A DNA stretch of 34,175 nt from the IMG/VR virus record IMGVR_UViG_3300046011_009943, positions 1-34,175 of that record. One strand, written 5' to 3'. The first letter of the stretch is position 1. The number at the start of each line of letters is the position of its first letter. Both the position numbers and the translations under genes were made by a program. The notes beneath the pieces are model-generated. The model was given only the letters and a program-made list of their open reading frames with translations. It searched no databases and was not told the DNA's origin. This DNA comes from a virus. Positions 2 through 16,890 of this stretch are shown piece by piece.

Positions 2-594
2 CCACAGGGTCCCATTGGACCAATAGGACCTATTGGACCATCAGGACCACAAGGTCCCATTGGACCTATCGGACCTATTGGACCATCAGGACCTACAGGA
101 CCACAGGGTCCCATTGGACCAATAGGACCTATTGGACCTATCGGGCCATCTGGACCGCAAGGTCCCATTGGACCTATCGGGCCATCTGGACCGCAAGGAC
201 CGATAGGACCTATCGGACCCATTGGACCATCAGGACCTACAGGACCACAGGGTCCCATTGGACCAATAGGACCTATTGGACCATCAGGACCACAAGGTCC
301 CATTGGACCTATCGGACCTATTGGACCTATCGGACCCATTGGACCATCAGGACCTACAGGCCCACAAGGTCCTATCGGACCAATTGGACCCATTGGGCCA
401 TCTGGTCCAACTGGACCACAAGGTCCCATTGGACCTATTGGTCCGATTGGACCATCAGGACCACAGGGTCCAATCGGTCCTATCGGACCATCAGGACCAC
501 AAGGACCAATTGGACCCATTGGTCCTATCGGACCATCAGGACCACAGGGACCAAGAGGTCCTACAGGACCACAAGGTGCACAAGGCGTTGCAGG
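2..594 (+). repeat. Collagen-coding DNA repeat block 1
   Basis: About 66 consecutive Gly-X-Y triplets are encoded by near-identical 9-bp units such as GGACCTATT, GGACCATCA and GGTCCCATT. They assemble into higher-order cassettes of the type GPQ-(GPI)2-5-GPS, optionally GPT. The cassettes recur with different numbers of GPI units. This is the pattern expected of repeat slippage or recombination under selection for the collagen frame. The block continues beyond the left edge. Confidence 0.9.
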
Positions 595-1669
595 CATCTC
601 CTCATATGTTGGTTATTGGTATGTTAATAGCACAGCCGGAGCTAATCCTGCTTCGGGGGAAATGTCATTTAATGAAACCGATCCTACTTTAGTAACTGAA
701 ATAGAATTACATGATGAAGAAGCCGCAGTATATACCAATGTAGGAGCAGTATTAAATTCTGTTACTGTAGGTTCTATTCTAAAATTATTTTGGGATGTTG
801 ATCCTTATTCAACGCAATTCTTTTATACTGTTAACAGTATAACAGACAATACAACCTATGTAAGATACGGCGTTTCATTTCTTAGTGGTCCTAGCCCATT
901 TACGTTCGTTGATACACAAAGTTATTATTGTGGTTTCGATTTTAAGGGTAATCGGGGGCCACAAGGACCAACTGGACCAACTGGTCCACAAGGACCCATT
1001 GGTCCAATTGGCCCTATTGGCCCATCAGGACCAACAGGTCCACAGGGTCCTATTGGACCAATTGGTCCAATAGGACCATCAGGTCCACAAGGTCCCATTG
1101 GACCTATCGGGCCATCCGGACCACAAGGTCCAATCGGACCTATTGGACCATCAGGTCCTCAGGGACCATCAGGACCAACAGGACCACAAGGTCCATCAGG
1201 TCCACAGGGACCAGCAGGACCATCAACAACAATTAACGCTACAGATGACACATCAACAGCAGCGGATCATTATCCAGTTTTTGTTGCCGCTGTAGGATCT
1301 AATCAAACGGCAGAAGCTTCCAGTACGAAACTTTATTTCAGACCGAGTACAGGCACACTGAACGCCACAATCTTCAACACATTATCTGATATAAACAACA
1401 AAGAAAATGTGGCAACCATTGAAGATTCACTAAATAAAGTTTTAAATTTGCGTGGTGTAAGTTTTAATTGGAAAGAAACTAAAGAAAAATCCATTGGTGT
1501 AATCGCTCAAGAAGTAGAACAAGTTATACCAGAGATCGTTCAGACAAATGAAAAAGGTATAAAATCTGTTTCATATGACAGCATTATCGGGCTGTTGATC
1601 GAAGCAATCAAAGATCAACAAAATCAAATAAATAATTTAACGGATATTATAAAGGAGCTTAAAAAATGA
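2..1669 (+). CDS. Collagen-like phage fibre with C-terminal S74 intramolecular chaperone (5' partial)
   Basis: The reading frame is open from base 2, so the gene starts before the window; the ATG at 662 is internal. Numbering residues from base 2, residues 1-198 are Gly-X-Y triplets rich in GPI, GPQ, GPS and GPT. Residues 199-315 form a non-collagenous domain, and 319-406 a second triplet block. The C-terminus matches the peptidase S74 family that trimerises and then cleaves itself from phage fibres. Ser462-Asp463 followed by Lys467 reproduces the Ser/Lys dyad spacing of five, predicting cleavage just before Ser462. [16 protein letters not shown] segment and a terminal coiled coil ([18 protein letters not shown]) are typical of the family. 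It is probably a trimeric tail fibre or whisker on the virion. Its stop overlaps the next start (ATGA). The domain calls are firm; the exact virion location is inferred. Confidence 0.88.
947..1225 (+). repeat. Collagen-coding DNA repeat block 2
   Basis: About 30 Gly-X-Y triplets use the same unit vocabulary as block 1, so the two blocks of one gene share homology on either side of a unique 350-bp segment. Recombination between them would remove the intervening globular domain. Confidence 0.85.
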
Positions 1670-1992: not shown

Positions 1993-4900
1993 ATGCCCAC
2001 CACAAGTTTCAGAGTTTCTGGTGCCGACTTAGACACGCTGTTTGAGCCCATAGGTGTCACTTCAAAAAGAGCCGATGTAAGTTATACGGTCGGAGGCACC
2101 GACATTTCTAACTATTATTATAGTGTAACAAACGGCGGCACTCCATTTGGTACAACCAACATGCAGGCCGGCACTGTAGATATCGGTACATTGTTTGCTG
2201 CGGCAGGGTCAGTTGTAACTGATAAATTTTTATATGTTTGGGGTAGAAATAATGTTGGGCAATTAGGAAGCGTTCCGGCAGGTTTTTCTGCTTTTAATAG
2301 TTGGATTGCGATAGGCGGAGGTAGACAACATGCGGTTGCAATACGTTCCGATGGGCTTTTATTTACTTGGGGGCGAAACACTTTTGGGCAATTAGGTGAC
2401 GGTACCACTACGACCAGATCAAGCCCAGTTCAAATTGGAACAAGTTCTTGGACAAGTGTAAGTGGAGGGCTTTCACATACAGCAGCAATACGTTCCGATG
2501 GAATGTTGTTTATTTGGGGAAATAACAACCATGGGCAATTAGGGCAAGGTAATACGAGTAATGCATCTAACCCAGTTCAGGTTGGAACCAGTTCATGGAC
2601 TGCTGTAGAGGCAGGAAAATACCACACAGCAGCAATACGTTCTGACGGTGGATTATTTACCTGGGGACTCAACGCCGACAACATGCTAGGCTTAAGTTCT
2701 GATTTTGTAACAACAATTTTTAGTTGGACTTCTATAAGTGCTGGATCATCACATGCTGCGGCAATTCGTTCAGATGGATTATTATTTACTTGGGGAAATA
2801 ATATTTACGGGCAATTAGGTAATGGAAATTTTACAACTAATAATCCTATAACATTAGGAACAGTTTCACCAGTACAAATAGGATCAAGCTCATGGACGGC
2901 GGTAAGTTGTGGTTATAGGCATACAGCAGCAATACGTTCTGACGGTGGATTATTTACTTGGGGTTTTGGTAGTAGCGGTCAATTAGGGCAAGGTAATGCA
3001 ACAAGTAGATCAAGCCCGATTCAAGTTGGAACAAGCTCTTGGACAAGTGTAAGCGCAGGAGGTAATCACACCGCAGCAATACTGTCTGGAGGAGGATTAT
3101 TTACTTGGGGTGATAACGTTTATGGAAAATTAGGGCAAGGTAATACAACAAACAGATCAAGCCCAATTCAGGTTGGAACAAGCAGTTGGACAAGTGTAAG
3201 CACAGGGCGTAATCACACCGCAGCAATACGGTCTGAAGGAGGATTATTTACTTGGGGGAGAAATAACAACGGGCCACTTGGGCAAGGTGTTACAACAGAC
3301 CTTTCCAGCCCAGTTCAAGTTGGAGCAAGCAGTTGGACCTCAGTGAGTGCGGGCACTTCTTTTACCGCAGCAATACGTTCTGACGGTGGTTTATTTACTT
3401 GGGGAGTAAATAGTGATGGGCAATTAGGGCAAGGTAATATAACAAACAGATCAAGCCCAATTCAAGTTGGAACAAGCTCTTGGACAAGTGTAAGCGCAGG
3501 TAATCAAAACACCCTTGCAATACGTTCTGGTGGTGGTTTATTTTCTTGGGGAAGAAATAACCTTGGGCAACTCGGGCAAGGTGTTACAACAAGCCGTTCT
3601 AGCCCAGTTCAAGTTGGAACAAGCATTTGGACTTCAATTAGCGCAGGAGGTGTTCTTAACATTTCGTTAGGTATTTTATCTAATGGGTTATTATATTCCT
3701 GGGGAAACATTCAGGGTCCTTTAGGTATAGGAGAGGGACTGAACACTAATTTTTTTGAAAATAAAAGCAGTCCCGTTTTAATAGGAAATAATGGTAATAC
3801 TTTATATAGCCCAGTTCAAATTGGAACAAGCTCTTGGACAAGTGTAAGCGCAGGAGGTTATCACACCGCAGCAATACGGTCTGAAGGAGGATTATTTACT
3901 TGGGGGAGAAATATCATTGGGCAACTCGGGCAAGGTGTTACAACAAGCCTTTCTAGCCCAGTTCAAGTTGGAACAAGCAGTTGGACTTCTGTAAGTTGTG
4001 GGTATCAACAAACTGCCGCAATACGTTTTCAAGGAGGACTATTTACTTGGGGGCTTAATAATCAAGGTCAATTAGGGCAAGGTAATGCAACAACTAGATC
4101 AAGCCCGATTCAAGTTGGAACAAGCTCTTGGACTTCTGTAAGTTCGGGTGTTGAACACATGGTAGCAATACGTTCAGATGGATTATTATTTTCATGGGGT
4201 AGAAATAGTGACTATGGCCAATTGGGTCTAAATGATTTAACAAACAGATCAAGCCCAATTCAATTACAATTTTCTTCTTTTACTATAGCAAAAGCGTTCG
4301 GGTCATTTTCATCAGCAGTAACACCAAACAACATCTTATTTGCCTGGGGAGCGAATAACTATGGCCAATTAGGGCAAAATAATACAACAAGTAGATCAAG
4401 CCCGACTCAAGTAGGAAATCAGCTTATAAATCTCAGTAGCCCTGTTCTATTAGGAACAAGCTCTTGGTCATTCATAAGTTCTAGCCCAAGCCACATGGCA
4501 GCAATACGCTCCGATGGGCTTTTATTTACTTGGGGTAGAAACAACTATGGGCAATTAGGTAATACCAATTTACTAGACTTATCAAGCCCAGTTCAAGTTG
4601 GAACAAGCAGTTGGACATCTGTAAGTCTCGGAGAGAATCATACCGTTGCAATACGTTCCGATGGAGCTTTGTTTACTTGGGGGCTTAATAATGTTGGGCA
4701 ATTAGGTACAAGCGATATCTTTAGTTGGACCTCTATAAGCGCAGGTATTTATCATACTTCAGCAATTCGATCTGATGGAAAACTATTTGCATGGGGTCGA
4801 AACAGTCAAGGCCAATTAGGGCAAGGTGATATGGTAAATCGATCTGCCCCAGTGTTAATAGGTATGAGTTCATGGACAAGTGTAAGTGCAGGAGGTAATC

Positions 4901-6444
4901 ACACCGCAGCGATACGCTCCGATGGGCTTTTATTTACTTGGGGTAGAAACGATTATGGAACTTTAGGAGACGGAACTATACTACCTAAATCAAGCCCTGT
5001 ATTGATAGGATCAAGTTCATGGACAAGTGTAAGTGCAGGGTCTTCTTTTACAACAGCAATACGTTCTGACGGTGGATTATTTACTTGGGGTAGAAACGAC
5101 TTTGGGCAATTAGGGCAAGGTGTTACAACAAACCTTTCCAGCCCAGTTCAAGTTGGAACAAGCAGTTGGACCTCAGTGAGTGCGGGAAATGGAATATCTG
5201 TTCCGCAGGTTCATGCAATACGTTCTGATGGTGGTTTATTTTCTTGGGGAAGAAATATCTATGGGCAATTAGGGCAAGGTAATACAACAAACAGATCAAG
5301 CCCAGTTCAGGTTGGAACAAGCAGTTGGACCTCTGTAAGTGCAGGAAATTCACATTCAGCAGCAATACGTTCTGACGGTGGATTATTTACTTGGGGTAGA
5401 AACAACTATGGGCAATTAGGGCAAGGTAATACAACAACCAGATCAAGCCCAGTTCAGGTTGGAACAAGCAGTTGGACCTCAGTGAGTGCAGGAGACAGAT
5501 TTACCTTAGCGGTTAGAAATGATAATAAATTACAAGCGTGGGGAAGAAACTTTAACGGGCAATTAGGGCAAGGTGCTACAACAACGATTTCAATTCCAAC
5601 TAATGTTGGAACTAGTTCATGGACAGTTGCAAGCGCAGGCCTGAGTTTTTCAGCAGCAATACGCTCCGATGGGCTTTTATTTACTTGGGGAGGAGACTCT
5701 TATGGTAGATTAGGGCAAGGTAGTACAGCAACATTATTCAGCCCCGTTTTAATCGGAAACAGTTTATCATTTCAAAATTCTCCAACTCAAATTGGAACTA
5801 GTTCATGGACAGTTGCAAGCGCAGGCCTGAGTTTTTCAGCAGCAATACGGTCTGAAGGAGGATTATTTACGTGGGGATTTAACAACAATGGGCAATTAGG
5901 GCAAGGTAATGTAACAAACCTCTCTAGCCCAGTTCAAGTTGGAACGAGTTCTTGGACAGCAGTGAGTTGTGGTTTATATTTTACTTCGGCAATACGTTCT
6001 GATTCGGCTTTATTTGCATGGGGCAGTAATGTTAATGGCCAATTAGGGCAAGGTAATACAACTAATCGTTCTAGCCCAGTTCAAGTTGGAACAAGCAGTT
6101 GGACCGCAGTAAGCATAGGAAATATACACACCTTAGCAATACGTTCAGATGGAGGTTTGTTTAGTTGGGGTTTAGGTAATAACGGCCAATTGGGGCAAGG
6201 TAACACATTAGCACTTTCTAGCCCAATTCAGATTGGAGCAAGTTCTTGGACAGCAGTGAGTGCTAAAATTACTTCATCCTTTGCAATAAGATCCGATAAA
6301 GCATTATTTTCTTGGGGATTAAACGCTAACGGCCAATTGGGGCAAGGTAATACAACAACTCGTACAAGCCCTATTCAAGTTGGAGTAAGTCAATGGACGA
6401 ATGTTAGTTCCGGTGGGGAGGCCACATCAGCACTAAAGACATAA
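1993..6444 (+). CDS. Giant RCC1-repeat beta-propeller protein, putative tail adhesin (paralogue 1)
   Basis: This 1483-residue protein has an N-terminal domain (about 1-75) shared with the next gene, followed by 28 RCC1-type blades of about 49 residues. The blade consensus is LFTWGRNNYGQLGQGNTT, then SSPVQVGTSSW, then TSVSAGNHTAAIRSDG. RCC1 domains fold as seven-bladed propellers, and 28 is four times seven. Linkers lacking the SPVQVG strand lie at about residues 91-105, 233-245 and 904-913. Linkers with a doubled SPV strand lie at about 593-612, 802-821 and 1250-1268. These behave as opening and closing points of inserted propellers (see findings). No signal peptide is present, consistent with a virion part rather than a secreted protein. 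The start follows a weak AAGGAT Shine-Dalgarno and has the same TAAATGCCCAC context as its paralogue. A role in host binding is inferred from its place beside a fibre gene. Confidence 0.88.
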   Translation: MPTTSFRVSGADLDTLFEPIGVTSKRADVSYTVGGTDISNYYYSVTNGGTPFGTTNMQAGTVDIGTLFAAAGSVVTDKFLYVWGRNNVGQLGSVPAGFSAFNSWIAIGGGRQHAVAIRSDGLLFTWGRNTFGQLGDGTTTTRSSPVQIGTSSWTSVSGGLSHTAAIRSDGMLFIWGNNNHGQLGQGNTSNASNPVQVGTSSWTAVEAGKYHTAAIRSDGGLFTWGLNADNMLGLSSDFVTTIFSWTSISAGSSHAAAIRSDGLLFTWGNNIYGQLGNGNFTTNNPITLGTVSPVQIGSSSWTAVSCGYRHTAAIRSDGGLFTWGFGSSGQLGQGNATSRSSPIQVGTSSWTSVSAGGNHTAAILSGGGLFTWGDNVYGKLGQGNTTNRSSPIQVGTSSWTSVSTGRNHTAAIRSEGGLFTWGRNNNGPLGQGVTTDLSSPVQVGASSWTSVSAGTSFTAAIRSDGGLFTWGVNSDGQLGQGNITNRSSPIQVGTSSWTSVSAGNQNTLAIRSGGGLFSWGRNNLGQLGQGVTTSRSSPVQVGTSIWTSISAGGVLNISLGILSNGLLYSWGNIQGPLGIGEGLNTNFFENKSSPVLIGNNGNTLYSPVQIGTSSWTSVSAGGYHTAAIRSEGGLFTWGRNIIGQLGQGVTTSLSSPVQVGTSSWTSVSCGYQQTAAIRFQGGLFTWGLNNQGQLGQGNATTRSSPIQVGTSSWTSVSSGVEHMVAIRSDGLLFSWGRNSDYGQLGLNDLTNRSSPIQLQFSSFTIAKAFGSFSSAVTPNNILFAWGANNYGQLGQNNTTSRSSPTQVGNQLINLSSPVLLGTSSWSFISSSPSHMAAIRSDGLLFTWGRNNYGQLGNTNLLDLSSPVQVGTSSWTSVSLGENHTVAIRSDGALFTWGLNNVGQLGTSDIFSWTSISAGIYHTSAIRSDGKLFAWGRNSQGQLGQGDMVNRSAPVLIGMSSWTSVSAGGNHTAAIRSDGLLFTWGRNDYGTLGDGTILPKSSPVLIGSSSWTSVSAGSSFTTAIRSDGGLFTWGRNDFGQLGQGVTTNLSSPVQVGTSSWTSVSAGNGISVPQVHAIRSDGGLFSWGRNIYGQLGQGNTTNRSSPVQVGTSSWTSVSAGNSHSAAIRSDGGLFTWGRNNYGQLGQGNTTTRSSPVQVGTSSWTSVSAGDRFTLAVRNDNKLQAWGRNFNGQLGQGATTTISIPTNVGTSSWTVASAGLSFSAAIRSDGLLFTWGGDSYGRLGQGSTATLFSPVLIGNSLSFQNSPTQIGTSSWTVASAGLSFSAAIRSEGGLFTWGFNNNGQLGQGNVTNLSSPVQVGTSSWTAVSCGLYFTSAIRSDSALFAWGSNVNGQLGQGNTTNRSSPVQVGTSSWTAVSIGNIHTLAIRSDGGLFSWGLGNNGQLGQGNTLALSSPIQIGASSWTAVSAKITSSFAIRSDKALFSWGLNANGQLGQGNTTTRTSPIQVGVSQWTNVSSGGEATSALKT
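2230..6435 (+). repeat. RCC1-coding tandem DNA repeats, 28 units of about 147 bp
   Basis: Units recur at about 147-bp intervals and keep long identical words such as AGCCCAGTTCAAGTTGGAAC and GGTGGATTATTTACTTGGGG. Some neighbouring units differ at only a few positions, pointing to recent duplication or gene conversion. Unit length is disturbed only at specific linkers, which are shorter or longer by roughly 30-50 bp. Confidence 0.9.
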
Positions 6445-6447
6445 ATA
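6440..6447 (+). promoter_or_regulatory. Late promoter-like CATAAATA
   Basis: The octamer differs from the T4 late consensus TATAAATA in the first base and overlaps the stop codon of the first RCC1 gene. It lies 43 bases before the second RCC1 start, a distance that allows a leader of about 38 bases. Confidence 0.5.
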
Positions 6448-6490
6448 TAATGGTATCCTCTTAAATTAATAACATTAAACGAAAAAATAA

Positions 6491-9400
6491 ATGCCCACTA
6501 CAAATTTCAAAGCTAATGGTGTCGATTTAGATTTATTATTTGAGCCTATAGGAGTAACAGCCAAAAGAGCCGATGTAAGGTATAAAGTCGGAGGCACTGA
6601 TATTTCAAACTATTTCTATGATGTAAGTAGTGGTGGCACAGCTTTTGGTACAACAAATTTTAAATTCACGAGCGTGGATATCGGTTCAATGTTTGCGGCT
6701 GCGGGCAGTGTAAGCTATAGTTCGTTTTTATATACTTGGGGAAACAATAGTGATGGACAATTAGGGTATGATATTTTAACACAACCTTATAGCTGGACTA
6801 CAATCGGTGGAGGCAACGGGCACACAGTAGCAATACGATCGGATGGTTTACTTTTTACTTGGGGCGACAACGATAATGGGCAACTAGGGCAAGGAAATAC
6901 AACGAGTAGTTCAAGCCCAATTCAGGTTGGAGCAAGTAGTTGGACCTCTGTAAGTGCAGGAAATTCACACTCGACGGCAATACGTTCAGATGGAGCTTTG
7001 TTTACCTGGGGAAGTAATAATTTTGGGCAACTTGGGCAAGGCAATCTTACAGATAGGTCAAGCCCAGTACAGATTGGAACAACAGAATCTTGGAGTGTAG
7101 TAAACGCTGGGCAATATCATACCGCCGCAATAAGAAACACTGGATCTTTATACACTTGGGGAATTAATTCTACTGGTCAATTAGGGCAAGGTACTACAAC
7201 AAACCTATCAAGCCCAGTTCAAGTTGGAACCAGTTCTTGGACCTCTGTCAGCGCCGGGCTTTTTCATACAGCAGCAATACGAAACACTGGGGCGTTGTTT
7301 ATTTGGGGTAGAAATCTCTCTGGTCAATTAGGGCAAGGAAACACATCGGACGCTTCCAGCCCAGTTCAAGTTGGAACCAGTTCTTGGACCTCTGTTAGTG
7401 CCGGGAATGAGCACACAGCAGCAATACGAAACACTGGGGCGTTGTTCACTTGGGGATTAGGTAACGCTGGAAGATTGGGGCAAGGAAATACAACCAATCT
7501 TTCTAGCCCAGTTCAAGTTGGAACAAGTAGTTGGAATTTAGTTAGCGCAGGAGATATACATACTGCCGCAATACGTTCCGATGGTGCACTTTTTACATGG
7601 GGTTTTAATAATATAGGGCAACTAGGTCAAGGTGACACGATCAACACTAACAGCCCAGTTCAAGTTGGAACAAGTAGTTGGACATTTGTAAATGCATCAA
7701 AAAGAGAAAATACTTTTGCAATAAATTCAAATAGTTTATTATTTGCTTGGGGAAGAGGTGGTTCTGGAGAATTAGGTATAAATTTAGCTTCCTCACGTTC
7801 TAGTCCAGTTCAAGTAGGTAATAATATATTGTTTTCCAATTCTTTACCTGCTCAAGTTGGAACAAGCTCTTGGACAAGTGTAAGCGCAGGTAATTATCAC
7901 ACAACGGCAATTCGATCTGATGGTAGATTGTTTGCATGGGGCAGAAATACTGCTGGTCAATTAGGGCAAGGAGATAAAACAAACCGTTCCAGCCCAGTAC
8001 AACTAGGAACTAGTTCGTGGACATCGGTTGATGCAGGAAAATTACATAGTGCGGCAATACGTTCTGATGGAGCACTTTTTACATGGGGTACAGGATATTT
8101 TGGAGAACTCGGGCTTTCAGGAACACAAATTTATAGTTGGACAGCAGTTGCAGGCGGAACTTTTCATATGGCAGGAATTCGCTCCGATGGTTTACTGTTT
8201 ACATGGGGCAGCAACACTGCTGGAGAATTGGGTCAAGGTGACACGATCAACACTAACAGCCCAGTTCAAGTTGGAGCAAGTTCGTGGACAACAGTCAGTG
8301 CCGGAAATTACCATACCGCAGCAATACGTTCCGATGGAGCTTTGTTTACTTGGGGAGCAAACCCTTCTGGTCAATTAGGGCAAGGTAGTACAACAGCACG
8401 TTCTAGCCCAGTTCAAGTTGGAACAACCGAATCTTGGACAACAGTCAGTGCTGGTAGAAGTCATACAGCAGGAATACGTTCAACAGGAGGATTGTATACG
8501 TGGGGAGCAAATAGTATTGGTGAATTAGGGCAAGGTAGTACAACAGCACTTTCTAGCCCAGTTCAGGTTGGAGCGAGTAATTGGACCACAGTCAGTGCCG
8601 GAGGTTATCATACCGCTGCAATACTTTCAGGGGGCGGATTATTTGCCTGGGGAAGAAATGTATGGGGTCAATTAGGGCAAGGTAGTACAACAGCACTTTC
8701 TAGCCCAGTTCAGGTTGGAGCGAGTAATTGGACCACAGTCAACGCATGTTTTGAACATACATTAGCAATACGTTCGGATGGAGCTTTGTTTAGTTGGGGT
8801 AACAATGGTTCTGGCCAATTAGGGCAAGGTAATACAACTAATCGTTCTAGCCCAGTTCAAGTTGGAGCGAGTTCTTGGGATTCTATTATAAAAGGACCAA
8901 TAGCGCGTTCAGCAGCAATAAGTTCTGATAAAAGATTGTTTACATTTGGTCCTAATTCTTCAGGAGAATTAGGAATAAACATTATAGCAAGCCGTAGTAG
9001 CCCAACATTGGTAGGAAATAATCCTATCAATACATTAAGCCCAGTTCAGGTAGGAACAAGTTCTTGGACAGTAGTTTCTGCTGGTTTGGAAACAACCTTC
9101 GCAATAAGAGAGGACAGTCTTTTGTTTGGTTGGGGTGCAAACAATAATGGGCAATTAGGGCAAGGCAATACAACAGGTCTTTCTAGCCCTGTTCAAATAG
9201 GATCAAATAGTTGGAACTCAGTCAGTGCAGGTGGTGCACACACCGCAGCAATAAGGGCTGATAGCCTTTTATATACTTGGGGGCGCAATCTTAGTGGTCA
9301 ATTAGGGCAAGGTAGCACCACTGACATCTCTAGCCCAGTTCAAGTCGGAACAACGGAATCTTGGATATCGGTCAGTGCTGGATATCTTCATACAGCAGGA

Positions 9401-9700
9401 ATAAGATCAAATAATCTTTTGTTTACTTGGGGGATTGGTAGTTATGGGCGCTTGGGTCAAGGAAATACAAATAATCTTTCTAGCCCAGTTCAGGTTGGAA
9501 CAAGCAGTTGGACCTCAGTGAGTGCTGGGCATCAGCATACAGCAGCAATACGTTCTGACGGTGGATTATTTACTTGGGGTTCTGGTAGTAGCGGCCGATT
9601 AGGGCAAGGTGTTACAACAAACCTTTCCAGCCCAGTTCAAGTTGGAGCAAGTAATTGGATACTAGTTGATACAGGAAGAGATTTTACAGTAGCACGTTAA
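6491..9700 (+). CDS. Giant RCC1-repeat beta-propeller protein, putative tail adhesin (paralogue 2)
   Basis: This 1069-residue protein is a tandem paralogue of the preceding gene. Residues 1-78 match the N-terminal domain of paralogue 1 (shared motifs LFEPIGVT, KRADV, VGGTDISNY, FAAAGSV), followed by 20 RCC1 blades. Short linkers lie at about residues 92-103 and 538-550, and doubled-strand linkers at about 437-456 and 836-855. Bracketing these gives propellers of 7, 7 and 6 blades. The C-terminus stops at FTVAR, in the middle of a blade, so the first LYTWG strand after the N-terminal domain probably closes the outermost ring. There is no signal peptide. No clear Shine-Dalgarno precedes the ATG, although a late promoter-like site does. 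It is likely a second adhesin or a partner subunit of paralogue 1; the function is inferred. Confidence 0.87.
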   Translation: MPTTNFKANGVDLDLLFEPIGVTAKRADVRYKVGGTDISNYFYDVSSGGTAFGTTNFKFTSVDIGSMFAAAGSVSYSSFLYTWGNNSDGQLGYDILTQPYSWTTIGGGNGHTVAIRSDGLLFTWGDNDNGQLGQGNTTSSSSPIQVGASSWTSVSAGNSHSTAIRSDGALFTWGSNNFGQLGQGNLTDRSSPVQIGTTESWSVVNAGQYHTAAIRNTGSLYTWGINSTGQLGQGTTTNLSSPVQVGTSSWTSVSAGLFHTAAIRNTGALFIWGRNLSGQLGQGNTSDASSPVQVGTSSWTSVSAGNEHTAAIRNTGALFTWGLGNAGRLGQGNTTNLSSPVQVGTSSWNLVSAGDIHTAAIRSDGALFTWGFNNIGQLGQGDTINTNSPVQVGTSSWTFVNASKRENTFAINSNSLLFAWGRGGSGELGINLASSRSSPVQVGNNILFSNSLPAQVGTSSWTSVSAGNYHTTAIRSDGRLFAWGRNTAGQLGQGDKTNRSSPVQLGTSSWTSVDAGKLHSAAIRSDGALFTWGTGYFGELGLSGTQIYSWTAVAGGTFHMAGIRSDGLLFTWGSNTAGELGQGDTINTNSPVQVGASSWTTVSAGNYHTAAIRSDGALFTWGANPSGQLGQGSTTARSSPVQVGTTESWTTVSAGRSHTAGIRSTGGLYTWGANSIGELGQGSTTALSSPVQVGASNWTTVSAGGYHTAAILSGGGLFAWGRNVWGQLGQGSTTALSSPVQVGASNWTTVNACFEHTLAIRSDGALFSWGNNGSGQLGQGNTTNRSSPVQVGASSWDSIIKGPIARSAAISSDKRLFTFGPNSSGELGINIIASRSSPTLVGNNPINTLSPVQVGTSSWTVVSAGLETTFAIREDSLLFGWGANNNGQLGQGNTTGLSSPVQIGSNSWNSVSAGGAHTAAIRADSLLYTWGRNLSGQLGQGSTTDISSPVQVGTTESWISVSAGYLHTAGIRSNNLLFTWGIGSYGRLGQGNTNNLSSPVQVGTSSWTSVSAGHQHTAAIRSDGGLFTWGSGSSGRLGQGVTTNLSSPVQVGASNWILVDTGRDFTVAR
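6725..9697 (+). repeat. RCC1-coding tandem DNA repeats, 20 units of about 147 bp
   Basis: The units are of the same family as in the preceding gene. Some stretches are shared almost verbatim between the two genes: 9600-9646 matches 5110-5156, and 9541-9607 closely matches 2929-2995. This indicates exchange between paralogues. Confidence 0.88.
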
Positions 9701-9738: not shown

Positions 9739-10779
9739 ATGCATTTGATAGATCAACAATTAAATTTAATGATACGTGGAAGATTTGATGAGGCTTGGAA
9801 AATAGCCGAAGAACTTGAAAGAATCGATCCTAATAATCCCAGATCAAAGTTTAATCGAGGATGGTTTTTAATAAACCAAGGAAAATGGCAAGAAGGTTTT
9901 CAGTGCCTTGAATATGGAAGATCACTTAGTGTTTACGGTAGCGGCAAACTAAACACAACTAAGCCCATATGGGATGGATCTTCGTTACAAGGTAAAAGCG
10001 TAATCATAAATTTAGAAGCAGGTTATGGTGACAATATTATGCAAGCCAGGTTTGCCACTGAAGTTATGTTGCGAGGAGGTAAAGCAATACTTTGCTGTGA
10101 TAAAACAATTCATTCCTTGTTCAATAGAATTCCAGGCGTAGAAAAGTGTATTGTTCTTGATGAAGTGTCTTCAACTTATCACGACTTCTGGATACCAGGT
10201 TTTAGTTGTAGTTGGTTATTCGGGCACACTGTAGAAAATTTTCCAAATGAGCCCTACATTTTCGCTCGTCAAGAAAGTGTTGAAATTTGGAAATCAATAT
10301 TAAGCACAAAGAAAATTAAAATTGGAATTCGTTGGAGTGGAAATCCAAAGTTCGAACACCAACAATTCAGAATTTTTCCACCAGAATTATTAATCAATCT
10401 CTATAAAAACAGAGAACATATACAATTCTATTCATTACAAAGAGATAATGATATAAGAGAATTGCCTGAGGAAATTTTTGATTTGCAACACGTTTTAATT
10501 TCATGGGAAGATACTGCGGCTTGTATTGAAAATTTGGACTTGGTCATTTCTTCATGCACAAGCATTGCACATCTTTCAGGTGCAATGGGTAAACCTACGT
10601 GGGTTATCGTACCAATATTACCATATCACCCTTGGGCGTATGGTGACAGACATAGCCCATGGTATTCAGAAGAAACGGTGGTTTTTAGGCAAAAAAAGTT
10701 CAGTGCTTGGAAAGATATTTTCGAACAACTAAGTACAGAACTTAACGATAAATTTCCTGCACCTAAAAAAGAAGCATAA
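9739..10779 (+). CDS. TPR-containing glycosyltransferase, heptosyltransferase (GT9)-like
   Basis: This is a 346-residue soluble protein. Residues 1-60 contain TPR-like helices (ADP-type repeat EAWKIAEELERIDPNNP, then RGWFLINQGKWQEGF). A nucleotide-sugar transferase fold follows, with a LEAGYGDNIMQARF motif near residue 95 and, near residue 270, the conserved SSCTSIAHLSGAMGKPTWV block. That block resembles the donor-binding region of GT9 ADP-heptose transferases and related TPR transferases. It opens the glycan module behind an exact late promoter and is a paralogue of the gene at 12784. Given the HldD and RfaE-like genes downstream, an ADP-heptose donor is plausible but not proven. The acceptor is unknown. 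Confidence 0.78.
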   Translation: MHLIDQQLNLMIRGRFDEAWKIAEELERIDPNNPRSKFNRGWFLINQGKWQEGFQCLEYGRSLSVYGSGKLNTTKPIWDGSSLQGKSVIINLEAGYGDNIMQARFATEVMLRGGKAILCCDKTIHSLFNRIPGVEKCIVLDEVSSTYHDFWIPGFSCSWLFGHTVENFPNEPYIFARQESVEIWKSILSTKKIKIGIRWSGNPKFEHQQFRIFPPELLINLYKNREHIQFYSLQRDNDIRELPEEIFDLQHVLISWEDTAACIENLDLVISSCTSIAHLSGAMGKPTWVIVPILPYHPWAYGDRHSPWYSEETVVFRQKKFSAWKDIFEQLSTELNDKFPAPKKEA

Positions 10780-10782
10780 ATA
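10775..10782 (+). promoter_or_regulatory. Late promoter-like CATAAATA
   Basis: The octamer overlaps the stop of the first glycosyltransferase and lies 28 bases before the sulfotransferase ATG. It has one mismatch to TATAAATA and the same layout as the site at 6440. Confidence 0.5.
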
Positions 10783-10810
10783 TTTTTTTTACATATAATT
10801 GGAGTTAGTT

Positions 10811-11605
10811 ATGAAAACATTGCACTTTATTTCTGGGCTTCCTCGTTCTGGTTCAACCTTAATCACAAATATACTAAAACAAAATCCTCAAATTCACGGT
10901 GAAGCGGTGACTTCATTGTCTTCTATTATTGGTACAGTGAATGCAAGTTGGGATAATTTTGAGACAAATCAAGAATATAATAATCAAAAAGCAAAAGTTG
11001 GTGTGCTTTCTGCCATTCTACAGGGATATTACAATCACATAGACAAACCTATTATCTTTGATAAAGATAGAGGATGGGTTTCATTACTGCCACTAGTTGA
11101 AGCGGTTTTACAAAGGCAGATAAAAATGATTATTTGCGTAAGAAATCCAGCAGAAATACTCTCTAGTTTTGAAAGATTAAGAAAAGAAAATCCTTTATAT
11201 TTTACTCGGGTAGATAAAGCTCTCAGAGAAGGATCAAATATTGCATCAAGAGCTTATTATTATGCAGGCCCAGAAGGTCCATTAGGGCTTTCACATAGAA
11301 ACATTAAAGATGCTATTGTAATGGGATATCAAGATCGATTTTTATTTGTTGATTACAATAGATATTGTAGTACCCCTAAAGCTCAAACAAAAAGAATTTA
11401 TGAATTCTTTGAATTGCCATATTTTGAACATGATTTCAAAAACATTACTCAAGAAGAAAATTACAACGATTTGGCTATTGGATTACCCGAACTACATAAA
11501 GTAAAATCTGAAGTGAATAGAACAACAGTCAATTGTGTTGAATATCTCGGGCTTGAATTGTATGAACAATACAATAGAGAAATTTTTTGGAATCCTTGGA
11601 TTTAA
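10811..11605 (+). CDS. Sulfotransferase family protein
   Basis: A 264-residue protein begins MKTLHFISGLPRSGSTL. The SGLPRSGSTL loop (residues 8-17) is the 5'-phosphosulfate-binding motif of PAPS-dependent sulfotransferases. The VRNPAEILSSFERL segment (around residues 110-124) fits the 3'-phosphate-binding motif, with Arg and Ser contacts. I chose the ATG at 10811 rather than a TTG twelve bases upstream because that TTG overlaps the GGAG Shine-Dalgarno. The product would transfer sulfate from PAPS to a sugar or protein hydroxyl. The APS kinase encoded at 16850 could help supply PAPS. The substrate is unknown, but it is surrounded by sugar-modifying genes, so a glycan acceptor is most likely. 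Confidence 0.82.
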   Translation: MKTLHFISGLPRSGSTLITNILKQNPQIHGEAVTSLSSIIGTVNASWDNFETNQEYNNQKAKVGVLSAILQGYYNHIDKPIIFDKDRGWVSLLPLVEAVLQRQIKMIICVRNPAEILSSFERLRKENPLYFTRVDKALREGSNIASRAYYYAGPEGPLGLSHRNIKDAIVMGYQDRFLFVDYNRYCSTPKAQTKRIYEFFELPYFEHDFKNITQEENYNDLAIGLPELHKVKSEVNRTTVNCVEYLGLELYEQYNREIFWNPWI

Positions 11606-11611
11606 TCTATT

Positions 11612-12193
11612 ATGTCATATGAAATGCGAAAAGCCGTCACTCGGCGGTTAAATGATTCCAGAGTTCTCAGAGAATATTTCGTAGGCAATGGTATAGATAT
11701 AGGTGCAGGAAACGATAGTTTGAATTTTTATAAAGAATTTTTTCCATTAATAAATTCTGTTTTATCATGGGATGTGGATCAAGGTGATGCACAATATCTC
11801 TCAAACATAAAAGATAATACTTTCGATTTTGCTGTTAGCAGTCACTGTTTAGAACATTTATTAGATCCACAAATTGCGCTTCACAACTGGATTAGAGTTG
11901 TTAGAAGAAAAGGTCACCTCGTCATTACCGTACCTGATGAAGATTTATATGAGCAACGTAGGTGGCCTTCTTTCTTTAATAGTGATCATAAGCATTCGTT
12001 TACAATAGCAAAAGATAAATCTTGGTGCCCCAAAAGTGTCAACATTCTGGAACTATTGCAAAAAGAAATTAATTCAATTAAAATAAAAAAAATAGAGTTA
12101 TTAGATACTCTTTTCTTTAAAGAGATTTCACCGACAGATCAAACTCAATTTTGTTCTGAAAGTGCAATAGAAATAGTGATACAAAAATTATGA
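11612..12193 (+). CDS. SAM-dependent methyltransferase (type 11-like)
   Basis: A 193-residue class I methyltransferase. Residues 27-33 (GIDIGAG) form the SAM-binding motif I, an acidic residue follows in LSWDVDQGD, and FDFAVSSHCLEHL is the typical type 11 motif IV region. The N-terminus has a short helical cap. It starts six bases after the sulfotransferase stop and its own stop overlaps the next ATG, so the genes are co-translated. It is only distantly similar to the two methyltransferases at 12190 and 14016, which are closer to each other. Methylation of a sugar in the same pathway is the likely role. Confidence 0.78.
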   Translation: MSYEMRKAVTRRLNDSRVLREYFVGNGIDIGAGNDSLNFYKEFFPLINSVLSWDVDQGDAQYLSNIKDNTFDFAVSSHCLEHLLDPQIALHNWIRVVRRKGHLVITVPDEDLYEQRRWPSFFNSDHKHSFTIAKDKSWCPKSVNILELLQKEINSIKIKKIELLDTLFFKEISPTDQTQFCSESAIEIVIQKL

Positions 12194-12771
12194 AAATAAA
12201 TTTAGGCTGTGGGTACAATAAAAAACCAGGTTTTATCAATGTTGATAAAGATCCAAGATGTCAACCAGATTTACTTTTCGACTGTGAAAAAGAATGGCCC
12301 ATAGAAACTTCAACCGTTGAAGAAATGTACATTTTTCACACCCTTGAACATCTTGGTGAAACCGTGGAAAAATTTATAATACTCATGAAAGAAATGTATA
12401 GAGTGAGCAAAAACGAATGCGTTTGGAAAATTACTGTCCCCCATTATAATTCAGACATTTTTCATATCGATCCCACACACGTTAGGAAAATTTGCCCAAC
12501 GACCATGAGAATGTTTGATCAGAACGACAATATCAGAGACATAAAAGAAGGAGGTCATTACACCAAACTTGGTCTAATGTATAATATTGATATCGAAGTT
12601 GTAAAGGATATATTTTATTTGAGTGAACCCTGGAACACCTATGCATCCTCAAATCAAAAAAGTAGTGAAGAAATAAATTTTGCGGGCAAACATTATAATA
12701 ACATTGGAGGAGACATTTACATTGAGTGTCGGGTTCACAAACCTCAAAGAGGTTTAAATTTCAAATTTTGA
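12190..12771 (+). CDS. SAM-dependent methyltransferase, paralogue of the 14016 gene
   Basis: A 193-residue protein begins MKINLGCGYNKKPGFINVD, the motif I of short methyltransferases found in sugar-modification clusters. IFHTLEHLGE (around residues 49-58) is the motif IV equivalent. The central blocks KEMYRVS, DPTHVRKICPTTMRMFDQ and YIECRVHKP align closely with the gene at 14016, so the two are duplicates within the module. The start overlaps the upstream stop (ATGA). Its substrate is unknown; O-methylation of a glycan intermediate fits the context. Confidence 0.77.
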   Translation: MKINLGCGYNKKPGFINVDKDPRCQPDLLFDCEKEWPIETSTVEEMYIFHTLEHLGETVEKFIILMKEMYRVSKNECVWKITVPHYNSDIFHIDPTHVRKICPTTMRMFDQNDNIRDIKEGGHYTKLGLMYNIDIEVVKDIFYLSEPWNTYASSNQKSSEEINFAGKHYNNIGGDIYIECRVHKPQRGLNFKF

Positions 12772-12783
12772 TGGTGTATATAC

Positions 12784-14019
12784 ATGAGCAATCTCAACAT
12801 AGAATTAATCAAAGTTAGCTCCTTAGAACAAGAGGCGAAATTTCTTTTTGAAAGAAAAAAATACAAAGAATCCGCTCAGTTGTTATCTAGATTTTTGAAA
12901 GAACAAAAAAATCCAGTTATACTAAACAACATTTACATGAATTTGAGAATGTGTTATTTCTTTGCAAATGATGTACCTAATGCATTGAATATTCTAGAAA
13001 AACAAGAAGAGCTGCCAATACAACATGAATGGACCATAAAAAGAGATAAAGCAAATTATCTGCGCTATATGAATCGGCATGACGAAGCATATGAAGTTGT
13101 GAAAACAATCGAAGATGAAAAAACAAGATACTTAGCATGGAGTTGGTTTGAACATAAAAATGGAAATGTCCGTGCCGCTTTCGAACTGATTGAGAAGTCC
13201 AGAAAGAATCATGTTTACTGGTTGTTCAAACTACCAGATTATAAATACACTTTTTGGAATGGTCAGCATGCCGAAAATCTAGTAGTTTTGGCAGAATCTG
13301 GGTTCGGAGACCAAATTATTTTTTCAAGATGGTTACCATTATTAAAAACTCTATGTCAAAATGTGTATTATGATGGCAAAGCACTATCTCCTACCTTTTG
13401 TAGGGTTTTCAACATTAAAGATATAAGCTCTTGGAAAGAAACAAAAAGTATTCACGCAGTTCCCATTATGAGTTTAGCTTATCATCTTTCAGTGGAAAAA
13501 CCTGACCCTATCAAATATCTAAACTGTGAATTAAATATAAAAAAAAGGTACGACGAAGAATTTCCAAAAAAACAACTACGAATAGGGCTTTGCGTCCAAG
13601 GAGACAAAACACATATTGAAACAAATTTGAGAACTTTACCATTAAAGGAAACTGTGGATCATTTAATAAAATTTGGTGAAGTTGTCAATTTAGAAAAAGA
13701 CGTAATTGAAAAGGATTCTAGAGTAAAATATATACCTTTTGAAACTTGGGAAGATACTCTTGCATTATTGGACACCTGTGATATTATAGTAACCTGTGAT
13801 ACAGGTGTATCACATGCGGCCGCAAGCATGGGTAAAACTACGATAGTGTTAATGCATGCCGCTGCATATTTTACATGGAATCATAATGAAGATATGAGCA
13901 AAACTATTTGGTATGAAAATGCTTGGTGTATTCACCAAGATTTACCTTGCGATTGGAAAGGCTCTTTAAATAAATGTGAACAATTAATTTCTGATTTGAT
14001 TGAAAAGGAAAAAATATGA
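12784..14019 (+). CDS. TPR-containing glycosyltransferase (second copy)
   Basis: A 411-residue protein. Residues 1-150 are helical TPR-like repeats. LAESGFGDQIIFSRWLPLL (about residues 172-190) matches the GD-I-F-R block of the gene at 9739, and CDIIVTCDTGVSHAAASMGK (about residues 336-355) matches its donor-binding block. It is therefore a paralogue with a longer repeat region. No Shine-Dalgarno is evident before the ATG, which follows the previous stop by 12 bases. Its stop overlaps the next methyltransferase start, so glycosyltransferase-methyltransferase pairs recur in this module. It presumably adds a second sugar; donor and acceptor are unknown. Confidence 0.76.
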   Translation: MSNLNIELIKVSSLEQEAKFLFERKKYKESAQLLSRFLKEQKNPVILNNIYMNLRMCYFFANDVPNALNILEKQEELPIQHEWTIKRDKANYLRYMNRHDEAYEVVKTIEDEKTRYLAWSWFEHKNGNVRAAFELIEKSRKNHVYWLFKLPDYKYTFWNGQHAENLVVLAESGFGDQIIFSRWLPLLKTLCQNVYYDGKALSPTFCRVFNIKDISSWKETKSIHAVPIMSLAYHLSVEKPDPIKYLNCELNIKKRYDEEFPKKQLRIGLCVQGDKTHIETNLRTLPLKETVDHLIKFGEVVNLEKDVIEKDSRVKYIPFETWEDTLALLDTCDIIVTCDTGVSHAAASMGKTTIVLMHAAAYFTWNHNEDMSKTIWYENAWCIHQDLPCDWKGSLNKCEQLISDLIEKEKI

Positions 14020-14621
14020 TTACTCCCGAACACAAAAAATTAAATATGGGTTGTGGCTTTAAAAAATTATTTGATCATTGGAACGTGGACTTCGAAGCAA
14101 AATGTAATCCCGATCAAGTTCTAGATTTAGAAGAAACACCATGGCCATATGAAGATGATTTTTTTGAAAAGATTACAGCCGACAACATTCTTGAACATCT
14201 TGGGCAATCACCAAGAAAATTTACAAGTATCATCAAAGAAATGTATCGAGTGAGCCGTGATCAAGCAGAATGGTATATTAATGTACCTCATCATAGGTGC
14301 GATTTACACTGGGATGATTACACACATGTTAGAGTGTTGACACCAAAAACTTTTCGAATGTTTGATCAATCTGCCAATATTGATTCGATTAGAAGAGGGT
14401 TAAGTGATAGCACTTTCGGTATTATGCACGATGTTGATTTAGAAGTCTATGATGTTACATATAATTTAGTAGGATATTGGAAAGATTTACTACAAGAAGG
14501 AATGTTAGGAGGTAAACAACTTGATATCAATCTAAACACTATGTCTAATGTTTGCGAATCTGTAAACATTTTCATTCGTGTGCATAAACCAGGAAGATTT
14601 AAAGACTACCTTTCATCATGA
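14016..14621 (+). CDS. SAM-dependent methyltransferase, paralogue of the 12190 gene
   Basis: A 201-residue protein with KLNMGCGFKK as motif I and NILEHLGQ as the downstream acidic/His motif. It shares KEMYRVS, THVRVLTPKTFRMFDQ and a terminal IRVHKPGR with the gene at 12190, so the pair arose by duplication. An AAGGA Shine-Dalgarno precedes the ATG, which overlaps the upstream stop. Its stop overlaps the next ATG (ATGA), so it is part of one tight operon. It probably methylates a different position or a different sugar than its paralogue; that is inference. Confidence 0.77.
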   Translation: MITPEHKKLNMGCGFKKLFDHWNVDFEAKCNPDQVLDLEETPWPYEDDFFEKITADNILEHLGQSPRKFTSIIKEMYRVSRDQAEWYINVPHHRCDLHWDDYTHVRVLTPKTFRMFDQSANIDSIRRGLSDSTFGIMHDVDLEVYDVTYNLVGYWKDLLQEGMLGGKQLDINLNTMSNVCESVNIFIRVHKPGRFKDYLSS

Positions 14622-15028
14622 TTAAAATTTTTGTCAATGGTACTTTTGATGTGCTACATCCTGGGCACATGGCTTTACTTAAAACAGCAAAAAAATTAGG
14701 CACTTATCTAATGGTATCTATCGATTCCGATGAACGAGTTAGAGAAAAAAAAGGAATCGATAGACCCTTTAACGATGAAATAACTCGCCAGTGTATTTTA
14801 GAAAATATTAAATGGGTTGATAAAGTTACCATTTTTAATACTGATGATGAATTAAAAAGCTTGATTAAAGATTATTCTCCAGATATAATGGTAATTGGTT
14901 CCGATTGGAAAGGTAAAAAAATTATTGGTTTTGAATATGCTAAACAATTTGTATTCTTTGATAGAGACCCTCGCTACTCAACGACAAAAATCCTTGAAGA
15001 TTTTATTAATAGGAGACAGTTGTGTTGA
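14618..15028 (+). CDS. rfaE2: RfaE2-like nucleotidyltransferase (HldE C-terminal domain alone)
   Basis: A 136-residue protein with the cytidylyltransferase-like signature VNGTFDVLHPGH (residues 5-16), where HPGH is the HxGH nucleotide-binding motif. SIDSDERVREKKG, DIMVIGSDW and the C-terminal YSTTKILEDF (compare the STT-K/N-I ending in HldE) match the D-glycero-beta-D-manno-heptose 1-phosphate adenylyltransferase half of HldE. In enterobacteria this is fused behind the kinase; here it is a separate gene placed before the kinase. It would join AMP to heptose 1-phosphate. Glycerol-3-phosphate cytidylyltransferase is a relative, but the adjacent RfaE1-like kinase and HldD favour the heptose role. 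Confidence 0.83.
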   Translation: MIKIFVNGTFDVLHPGHMALLKTAKKLGTYLMVSIDSDERVREKKGIDRPFNDEITRQCILENIKWVDKVTIFNTDDELKSLIKDYSPDIMVIGSDWKGKKIIGFEYAKQFVFFDRDPRYSTTKILEDFINRRQLC

Positions 15029-15725
15029 CGAATATCATTATGGCTCATGTGATAAATTAAGCCCAGAAGCCCCTGTTCCAATTTTTAAGTTCAAAAGAAA
15101 AGAACAAAAAAATGGAATGGCAAGTAATGTCAAAAATAATCTTGAAGCTTTGGGTGTGGAGGTCATTTCATATCTCAGCAAAGAATCAAAAAAGATACGT
15201 TACATCGATGAAAAATCAAATCAACACCTGCTTCGTATAGATGAAGACATTGTTTCGGAACCTCTTAAAACTAACATAGATTTACCAAAAGATATTGATG
15301 GTATCGTTATCTCCGATTACGAAAAGGGCTTTGTTTCATATGAGTTGATTGGAGAAATTATACAAAGATATTCACCAAAAATACCCATTTATATCGACAC
15401 CAAAAAAAGAGACCTACAAAAGTTTAAAAATTGTTTTATTAAGATAAATGAATTTGAGTATTCGAATCGTGTATCAGATGGGCAGGATGTCATAGTAACT
15501 TTTGGTTCTTCACACGTACAATATAAAAATAAAAAGTTTTCAGTACCAAAAATTAAAGCGTTTGATGTTTGCGGAGCAGGAGACACATTCCTCTCCGCTT
15601 TTTCTTTTGCGCATCTACTTTCAAAAGACATAGATATTGCAATTGAATTTGCAATCAAGGCCTCGTCAATTACTATTCAACATGTTGGAGTTTACTCTCC
15701 AGATTTAGGAGAAATATTATGCTAA
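14994..15725 (+). CDS. rfaE1: RfaE1-like PfkB-family heptose kinase, shortened
   Basis: KILLIGDSCVDEYHYG and SPEAPVPIFK match the N-terminus of the HldE kinase domain. HLLRIDED corresponds to the substrate region, and FDVCGAGDTF carries the PfkB anion-hole and catalytic Asp. It would phosphorylate heptose 7-phosphate at C1. I place the start at the TTG at 14994, giving MKILLIGDS as in the family; in-frame ATGs at 14895 and 14925 would add unrelated residues inside the upstream gene. The start overlaps that gene by 35 bases in another frame and has no clear Shine-Dalgarno, so coupling or frameshifting is possible. At 243 residues it is short for this kinase (about 310); the missing part lies after GMASNVKNNLEALGVEV, where the usual GxD lid region is absent. 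Activity therefore needs testing. Confidence 0.8.
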   Translation: MKILLIGDSCVDEYHYGSCDKLSPEAPVPIFKFKRKEQKNGMASNVKNNLEALGVEVISYLSKESKKIRYIDEKSNQHLLRIDEDIVSEPLKTNIDLPKDIDGIVISDYEKGFVSYELIGEIIQRYSPKIPIYIDTKKRDLQKFKNCFIKINEFEYSNRVSDGQDVIVTFGSSHVQYKNKKFSVPKIKAFDVCGAGDTFLSAFSFAHLLSKDIDIAIEFAIKASSITIQHVGVYSPDLGEILC

Positions 15726-16066
15726 AAATTGAAAAAGGATGGGGGCGAGAACTCATCTGGGCAGACACAGAAAAATATTGTGGAAAGTTTTTGAAATTTA
15801 ATAAAGGTGGAGCTTTCAGTATGCACTTTCATGCAGAGAAAGATGAAACGTGGTACGTACTTGAAGGTAAATTTGTTTTAAAAACAATTGATACTGAGAA
15901 TGCCGAAATAAGTGAACAAATTTTAAATGTCGGAGATACTTGGCGAAATAAAATTTTGGAACCCCATCAACTGATTTGTGTAGAAGAAGGTACAATTATA
16001 GAAGTAAGTACCAAAGACAATTATCAAGATAACTATAGAATTCTCCCAGGAGATAGTCAGAAATGA
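15719..16066 (+). CDS. Cupin protein, mannose-6-phosphate isomerase type II-like
   Basis: A 115-residue single-domain cupin. GWGRELIWADTEKYCGKFLKF is followed by MHFHAEKDETWYVLEGK (about residues 35-51), the H-x-H-x-E metal-binding cupin motif. LNVGDTWRNKILEPHQL supplies the second motif and its histidine. The pattern is that of the cupin domain in type II phosphomannose isomerases. A TAGGAG Shine-Dalgarno lies inside the end of the kinase gene, which it overlaps by seven bases. It sits between the kinase and the HldD epimerase, so it may isomerise a sugar phosphate in the same route. Whether it replaces the missing GmhA isomerase is speculative. Confidence 0.72.
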   Translation: MLKIEKGWGRELIWADTEKYCGKFLKFNKGGAFSMHFHAEKDETWYVLEGKFVLKTIDTENAEISEQILNVGDTWRNKILEPHQLICVEEGTIIEVSTKDNYQDNYRILPGDSQK

Positions 16067-16890
16067 TTCTTGTTACTGGGTACAAAGGATTCATTGGTAG
16101 TTTTTTAGTTCATAGACTAATTCAATTAAATTATCGAATACGTTGTTTTGAATGGGGTGATAAATTAAATCTAGACGGTGTAAAAACCGTCATGCACCTA
16201 GGTGCTATCTCATCAACAACCGAAAAAGATGTTGAAAAAGTTCTGACACAGAACTATGACTTTTCGGTCGAACTGCTCAATTTGTGTATCGAAAATAAAA
16301 TAGATTTACAATATGCATCCTCAGCTTCAGTGTATGGCTTGAACAAAGAATTTAATGAAAATTCTTCTGTTGACCCTAGAACTCCTTACGCATGGTCTAA
16401 ATACCTATTTGAAAGACAAGCAAATAAAGCTATACAACAAAAAGTAGGAATTACAATACAAGGTTTTAGATATTTTAATGTATGGGCAGAATTTGGAGAA
16501 GATCATAAGTTAAACCAATCTAGCCCTTACTTCAAATTTCTCAAAGAAGCGAGAGAAACAAATTACATAACATTGTTCAAAAAAAGTGAGAACTATAAAA
16601 GAGATTTTATTTACGTTGATCAAATCATAGATTTACATTTAAAATTTTTACAAATAAAAGAAAGTGGTATTTGGAATTTTGGTACTGGTAAAGCTAAATC
16701 TTTTTTGCAAGTAGCAAGAGAAGTGAACTCTTTATATCCTTGTCAGTTCAAAACAATTAAAATGCCAGAACAATTAGTGAACTCGTATCAAGAATACACC
16801 TGTGCTGATATGAAAAAAACTAATTCTACATTAAAATTATGGGGGCTTTATGAAGAAGATATTGATTATGGGCCTGCCTGGAGCAGGTAA
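16063..16890 (+). CDS. hldD: ADP-L-glycero-D-manno-heptose 6-epimerase-like (HldD)
   Basis: A 275-residue extended SDR enzyme. GYKGFIG (residues 6-12) is the Rossmann GxxGxxG loop, YASSASVYG contains the catalytic Ser region, and Tyr109/Lys113 form the YxxxK motif (YAWSK). SSTTE, GFRYFNV, SENYKRDFIYV and FGTGKAKSF match HldD closely, more than they match generic epimerases. It would convert ADP-D-glycero- to ADP-L-glycero-D-manno-heptose. It is shorter than bacterial HldD (about 310) because the segment after the first Rossmann strand is compressed. A good Shine-Dalgarno (AGGAGAT) and an ATGA overlap with the cupin gene support the start. Its 3' end overlaps the APS kinase gene by 41 bases. 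Confidence 0.85.
   Translation: MILVTGYKGFIGSFLVHRLIQLNYRIRCFEWGDKLNLDGVKTVMHLGAISSTTEKDVEKVLTQNYDFSVELLNLCIENKIDLQYASSASVYGLNKEFNENSSVDPRTPYAWSKYLFERQANKAIQQKVGITIQGFRYFNVWAEFGEDHKLNQSSPYFKFLKEARETNYITLFKKSENYKRDFIYVDQIIDLHLKFLQIKESGIWNFGTGKAKSFLQVAREVNSLYPCQFKTIKMPEQLVNSYQEYTCADMKKTNSTLKLWGLYEEDIDYGPAWSR

Follow-up and report, generated by a model that had tools for sequence, protein, structure and literature searches.

A phage RCC1-repeat protein that seems to carry seven-bladed propellers within the blades of other propellers, and one ring of six

P2, a 1069-residue protein encoded on the + strand at positions 6491-9700 of a viral DNA stretch of 34,175 nucleotides (the whole of IMG/VR record IMGVR_UViG_3300046011_009943, herein the window), seems to be a phage protein of Russian-doll build, with seven-bladed propellers inserted in blades of other propellers. 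We consider it probable that P2 is a nested RCC1 propeller protein on the phage surface and that its second inserted ring, with six blades, is short by one lost interior unit of 147 bp.

Results

Strand Pattern of P2

P2 comprises an N-terminal domain of ~79 residues and 20 RCC1-type units of ~49 residues; a regular-expression listing had merged two units, which the strand parser split. All blades are of the RCC1 type: Pfam PF00415 matches 17 stretches with 621 bits against a cut-off of 21.7, PF25390 reaches 683 bits against a cut-off of 150, and PF13540 also matches far above its cut-off. The strand order within a blade is A (WTSVSAG), B (HTAAIRSDG), C (LFTWG..), and D (SSPVQVG), with strand D outermost. 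Strand D is absent from two linkers of P2 and present twice in two later ones. We parsed these patterns with a semi-Markov parser that scores each of the four strands by a position weight matrix and calls an opener where C steps to A without D and a closer where D steps to D. The result, o(ooooooo)oo(oooooo)oooo, gives inserted rings of seven and six blades and an outer ring of seven. A preliminary description of this DNA had placed missing-strand and doubled-strand linkers at the same sites, with coordinates that agree to within a few bases, and had proposed the same three ring sizes; counting by C strands numbers the ring-2 blades 11 through 16 instead of 10 through 15.

Along the chain (all coordinates on the + strand), the N-terminal nonpropeller domain (6491-6727; residues 1 through 79), common to the upstream paralogue P1 and to relatives such as L013, L016, L017, L042, and L044, is followed by strand C of outer-ring blade 1 (6728-6766; residues 80 through 92) and by the first linker without strand D, opener 1 (6767-6793; residues 93 through 101). 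Seven A-B-C-D blades make up inserted ring 1 (6794-7819; residues 102 through 443). The doubled strand D of closer 1 (7799-7861; residues 437 through 457) reads SSPVQVG-NNILFSN-SLPAQVG; its first copy terminates ring 1, and its second completes outer blade 1. The complete outer blade 2 and strands A-B-C of outer blade 3 (7871-8113; residues 461 through 541) lead into the second linker without strand D, opener 2 (8114-8137; residues 542 through 549), and the six A-B-C-D blades of inserted ring 2 (8138-9016; residues 550 through 842, from the parse and an AF2 fragment model). Closer 2 (8996-9055; residues 836 through 855; SSPTLVG-NNPINT-LSPVQVG) repeats the arrangement, its first D terminating ring 2 and its second completing outer blade 3. 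The remainder (9065-9697) holds outer-ring blades 4 through 7 and a C-terminal A strand with a short B strand, the velcro for outer blade 1. Outer blade 1 is hence assembled from the A and short B strands of the chain end, its own N-terminal C strand, and a D strand from closer 1. The outer ring sums to seven (1 + 2 + 4) and, as read from the sequence parse, consists of three discontinuous segments around two inserted rings, in the layout ( ) ( ).

The paralogue P1 (1993-6444, + strand; 1483 residues) parses as o(ooo(ooooooo)oooo)oo(ooooooo)oooo and has seven blades in each of its four rings; with the tuned parser, one of its blades has an unscored C strand and is counted from the B-to-D step. 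Under the first parser settings NNPITLGTVSPVQIG in P1 was called as a closer; a minimum D-D gap removed this call, and the parse of P2 was constant throughout. Agreement between the two proteins had been taken as independent support for the rule. P1 does obey it, but the outer layout o( )oo( )oooo is common to both proteins, and the phage relatives provide the better test. The third ring of P1, which occupies the same outer-ring position as ring 2 of P2, has seven blades.

A Multiple-of-Seven Rule across Related Phage Proteins

Relatives were fetched from viral contigs by alignments of P1 and P2 and parsed under identical rules. Bracket levels were counted in 22 distinct, complete, and balanced proteins (86 levels), nine of which lay outside parser training; divergent long proteins (L091, L099, L101, L107, L108, and similar) parsed too poorly to be counted. 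Of the 86 levels counted in these 22 phage proteins, 85 contain a multiple of seven blades and one does not: 80 have exactly 7, five have 14, which are two tandem rings inside one insertion, and one, ring 2 of P2, has 6. Shuffled brackets give multiples of seven at ~10% of levels. The training set yields 47 of 48 levels against a null maximum of 16 in 20,000 trials, and the nine unseen proteins yield 38 of 38, where random balanced placement gives a mean of 3.5 and a maximum of 10 (n = 1,000). P2 alone has P ∼ 0.018 under random bracket placement.

Because the requirement for balanced brackets could bias the sample, the total number of blades in complete proteins was counted as well, with L014 removed as a near-copy of L017. 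This total is a multiple of seven in 29 of 34 proteins. Three of the five nonmultiples show a gap where the parser missed a unit (L071, read by eye; L030 and L097, from gap length only). The exceptions that are left are P2 (20 blades) and L060 (46), with L014 (34) as a third. Taken together, the parses strongly support the bracket rule, both across the 22 proteins and among those outside parser training. The bacterial homologues comprised three loci only, all from metagenome-assembled genomes and all parsed without brackets.

Insertion can be repeated. The parse of L062, o(oooo(oooo(oooo(oooo(ooooooo)ooo)ooo)ooo)ooo)oooooo, shows five levels of insertion, all sevens; L062 (2000-8455) and L070 (2229-9593) both nest to five inserted levels with every ring seven, in totals of 42 and 49 blades. 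Of 31 nested openers in the inserted seven-blade rings of L013 through L111, 22 are in blade 4, where a uniform spread would place 1/7 (binomial P ∼ 1e-12, a value to be read with the sharing of openers by descent among related proteins in mind). Blade 4 is opposite the point at which the chain enters and exits the inserted ring, so insertion there would lead to an extended rod whose rings are joined by two strands each. Recursive insertion at blade 4 would, on this geometry, give a straight, extended rod of propellers.

The Missing Blade of Ring 2

Ring 2 of P2 spans 293 residues in six uninterrupted units of ~49 residues. A hidden or degenerate seventh blade was considered and rejected, as residues 550 through 842 contain no spare residues. 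Rings 1 and 2 share the opening blade type, a linker between blades 2 and 3 that is one residue longer (TTESW), and a diverged closing blade (GELGIN..ASRSSP..VGNN). Since ring 2 keeps both its opening and its closing blade, the absent blade is an interior one. Alignment of residues 461 through 904 with 32 inserted rings leaves one gap of ~49 residues; the rings were chosen for having seven blades, and the alignment accordingly reports the size of the gap and not its frequency.

The longest exact direct repeat in the P2 gene, of 72 bp, lies inside ring 2. Its first copy (8523-8594, + strand) covers the end of ring-2 blade 3 and the start of blade 4, and its second (8670-8741, + strand) lies one 147-bp unit downstream. 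The repeat shows recent exchange between neighboring units, by duplication or conversion, and marks an exchange-prone site. It was rejected as a deletion scar, since in a simple deletion the two repeats fuse into one.

Differences in unit number are seen elsewhere in the family. The contigs of L014 and L017 are 99.3 to 100% identical (the 99 to 100% range), and L014 (1285-6546) lacks 186 bp, corresponding to one blade plus a closer, that in the longer form L017 (6001-11448) are flanked by 70-bp exact direct repeats. This pair is an actual case of single-blade loss or of assembly collapse. In P1, the longest exact repeat (58 bp; window positions 5606-5663 and 5792-5849, 186 bp apart) spans the closer of the third ring and has the same geometry as the L017 repeat. 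L060 (1227-8234) and L062 are alike over most of their sequence but carry different numbers of near-identical four-blade opener modules; L060 carries an opener without a closer and is either a recombinant or a misassembly. Differences of the L014/L017 and L060/L062 types can arise from recombination or from assembly, and published work on repetitive propellers notes both sources (PMC9218822).

Ring 2 is the sole exception in 86 levels and is best explained by the loss of one unit, which was more likely real than produced in assembly. Loss is favored because every one of the other 85 levels is a multiple of seven, the corresponding P1 ring has seven blades, and a near-identical pair shows blade loss between direct repeats. 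The preliminary description had offered two accounts of the ring, recent loss of a unit or a true six-bladed propeller, and had looked to related phages for a seven-bladed counterpart. The first account gains from these comparisons; the predicted structure, uncertain exactly at the closing blade, neither shows nor speaks against a closed ring of six. P1 supplied a seven-bladed counterpart and the related phages multiples of seven at every counted level, but no close P2 orthologue with a seven-blade ring was found among the viral-contig relatives.

Structure Prediction

Full-length P2 was predicted poorly by AF2 (pLDDT 42.7, pTM 0.35; 16 loosely aligned relatives), and failure of AF2 on very repetitive arrays has been reported elsewhere too (PMC9218822). 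A fragment comprising three outer blades around ring 2, predicted with 32 ring-matched rows, reached a pLDDT of 81 and a pTM of 0.64. In this model the split blade has its A, B, and C strands, no D strand is present at the opener, and strands are formed at both copies of the doubled D after ring 2. Strands A through D fall at the parsed positions except for the A strand of the last ring-2 blade. Five ring-2 blades are confident; the sixth, without an A strand, has a pLDDT of ~50 to 60, and as the alignment gap adjoins this blade, its weakness may be an effect of the method. Modeling around residues 550 through 850, proposed earlier as a check on the ring, supports five of its blades and, given the low pLDDT of the closing blade, does not confirm closure.

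The best PDB matches of the fragment in Foldseek are UVR8 and other RCC1-like rings (TM ≤0.68 by target length, RMSD ∼17 Å). A fit of this kind is unlike that expected for one closed seven-bladed ring, and it argues mildly against capture of the split outer blade by the six blades inserted in it, but is no proof that those six close into a ring.

Genome Context

The window comes from a T4-like phage and encodes major capsid gp23, portal, sheath, terminase, and gp15; its capsid protein is closest to those of Methylophilales, Stenotrophomonas, and Pelagibacter phages (~62 to 64%). P1 and P2 are directly downstream of a collagen-like fiber gene with an S74 chaperone domain, and the T4-like structural genes lie downstream of them. 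The fiber gene, a probable tail fiber cut by the contig end (window 2-1669), consists of a collagen-like repeat array followed by the S74 endosialidase chaperone domain. RCC1 genes also follow fiber genes in the phages BUCT-ZZ01 and S-SRM01. The stretch that separates the RCC1 genes from the T4-like head/tail module (window 9739-17704) encodes a sulfotransferase, a methyltransferase, a family-9 glycosyltransferase-like protein, a cytidylyltransferase, and a sugar epimerase, a possible glycan-modification cassette.

The N-terminal domain of P2 (6491-6730) has weak relatives in hypothetical proteins of the Xanthomonas phages FoX1, 2, 3, and 5 (37% identity, E 1e-4) and is probably a virion or fiber attachment domain. 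Judging by gene context, P2 is most likely a virion-attached surface adhesin anchored by this domain. The PHROG matches of the region 1993-9700 (phrog_7220, phrog_4219, and phrog_16766) are filed under "DNA, RNA and nucleotide metabolism", which looks like name transfer; the context suggests the tail or virion surface. The activities of eukaryotic RCC1, guanine nucleotide exchange and chromatin binding, are not expected in a phage.

Discussion

From the strand pattern, the blade counts, the family-wide rule, and its single exception, we infer a folded topology, a direction of change, and a function. The seven-bladed outer ring of P2 would be split twice between strands C and D, each split holding a whole ring that runs from A to D, and the second D after each inserted ring would return to complete the split outer blade. 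Because a ring must close, the number of blades per ring would normally be fixed at seven. A seven-blade ancestor of ring 2 would then have lost an interior 147-bp unit through recombination between near-identical units in the phage. The N-terminal domain would anchor the protein to the virion beside the tail fiber, with the propeller faces binding the host surface.

The strongest competitor to loss in the phage, and a possible though distinctly less probable one, is that ring 2 has seven blades in the phage and that the assembler merged one near-identical 147-bp unit. The source is a metagenome contig, the 72-bp exact repeat stands at one-unit spacing in exactly the ring concerned, the exceptions L014 and L060 also fall in near-identical repeats, and the literature on repetitive propellers carries a warning to this effect (PMC9218822). 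Yet a typical short read is longer than 72 bp and can span the repeat, and the brackets of P2 are balanced whereas those of L014 and L060 are not.

We regard it as unlikely that ring 2 is a true, selected six-bladed RCC1 ring with a function of its own. Both of its terminal blades are intact, and propellers, engineered as well as natural, can accommodate a different number of blades (PMC6805158, PMC9218822); against this, no other six-bladed ring occurs in the 86 levels, and AF2 leaves the closing blade at low confidence. Slightly less likely still, the six inserted blades might recruit the split outer blade 3, with A-B-C before them and D after, forming a seven-bladed ring with a 3+1 closure and leaving an outer ring of six. 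The order ABC(ABCD x6)D is topologically compatible with such an exchange, and propellers commonly close by a velcro in which up to three strands are permuted (PMC6805158). Extended to the family as a whole, however, the reading would give inserted rings of eight blades and host rings with one blade too few for each insertion, where the nested reading gives seven almost everywhere, and the fragment does not fit seven-bladed rings closely (TM 0.66 to 0.68 at the RMSD given above). A plain tandem array without nesting is strongly disfavored and very improbable, for although single D strands could come and go in a repeat array, the openers and closers are balanced and 85 of the 86 levels that they enclose are multiples of seven, where random placement gives ~10%.

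If the nested reading is true, ring size acts as a checksum within the sequence: the topology can be predicted from openers and closers, and the blade count at each level shows whether a gene is intact. The family would then offer a sequence-only test of how repeat proteins gain and lose whole domains without breaking closure, and P2 a natural experiment on the tolerance of a seven-bladed fold for six blades. It would also suggest that phage proteins labeled "regulator of chromosome condensation" are modular surface rods. We put forward only tentatively the fuller picture of rod-like adhesins built by recursive C/D insertion at blade 4, the chain returning through every ring, together with a folded and working six-bladed ring in P2. 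With its poor full-length model, P2 is in any case a hard target for structure predictors.

RCC1-like propellers are the best sequence and fold matches of P2 in the PDB. RCC1 (1a12), UVR8 (4d9s), the RCC1-like domains (RLDs) of HERC proteins, and BLIP-II have in common with P2 the repeat and the four-strand blade, and their seven blades per ring agree with the counts for ring 1 and the outer ring; known RCC1-like propellers are single rings, in contrast to the rings inside blades of others, one with six blades, that are read from P2. The RCC1 proteins of the Synechococcus phages BUCT-ZZ01 and S-SRM01 have the same repeat, near tail-fiber genes, with 14 (2 × 7) and mostly 7 blades, but their rings are single or tandem only, and BUCT-ZZ01 is without openers or closers. 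WRAP and other recently amplified, repetitive propellers resemble P2 in that near-identical blades are gained and lost by recombination, and 14 blades fold as 7 + 7 (PMC6805158, PMC9218822); they are tandem and without bracket strands, whereas the P2 family is nested.

The closest likeness in plan is with DDB1 and CPSF160, in which three discontinuous chain regions contribute to one propeller (PMC5760199). These proteins have three seven-bladed rings, one built from three segments, a plan equal to the ( ) ( ) of P2 as far as the sequence layout of the latter indicates. Their WD40 repeats and C-terminal helical domain are not found in P2, which is alike in plan only and is not a member of that group. 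They keep one fixed plan with one level of insertion, unlike the phage family, in which the repeats are of the RCC1 type, the plan is variable, and insertion reaches five levels. Among the papers searched, none was found that describes phage RCC1 propellers nested in this way. An interrupted ring is already known from DDB1 and CPSF160; the repeated nesting appears to be new.
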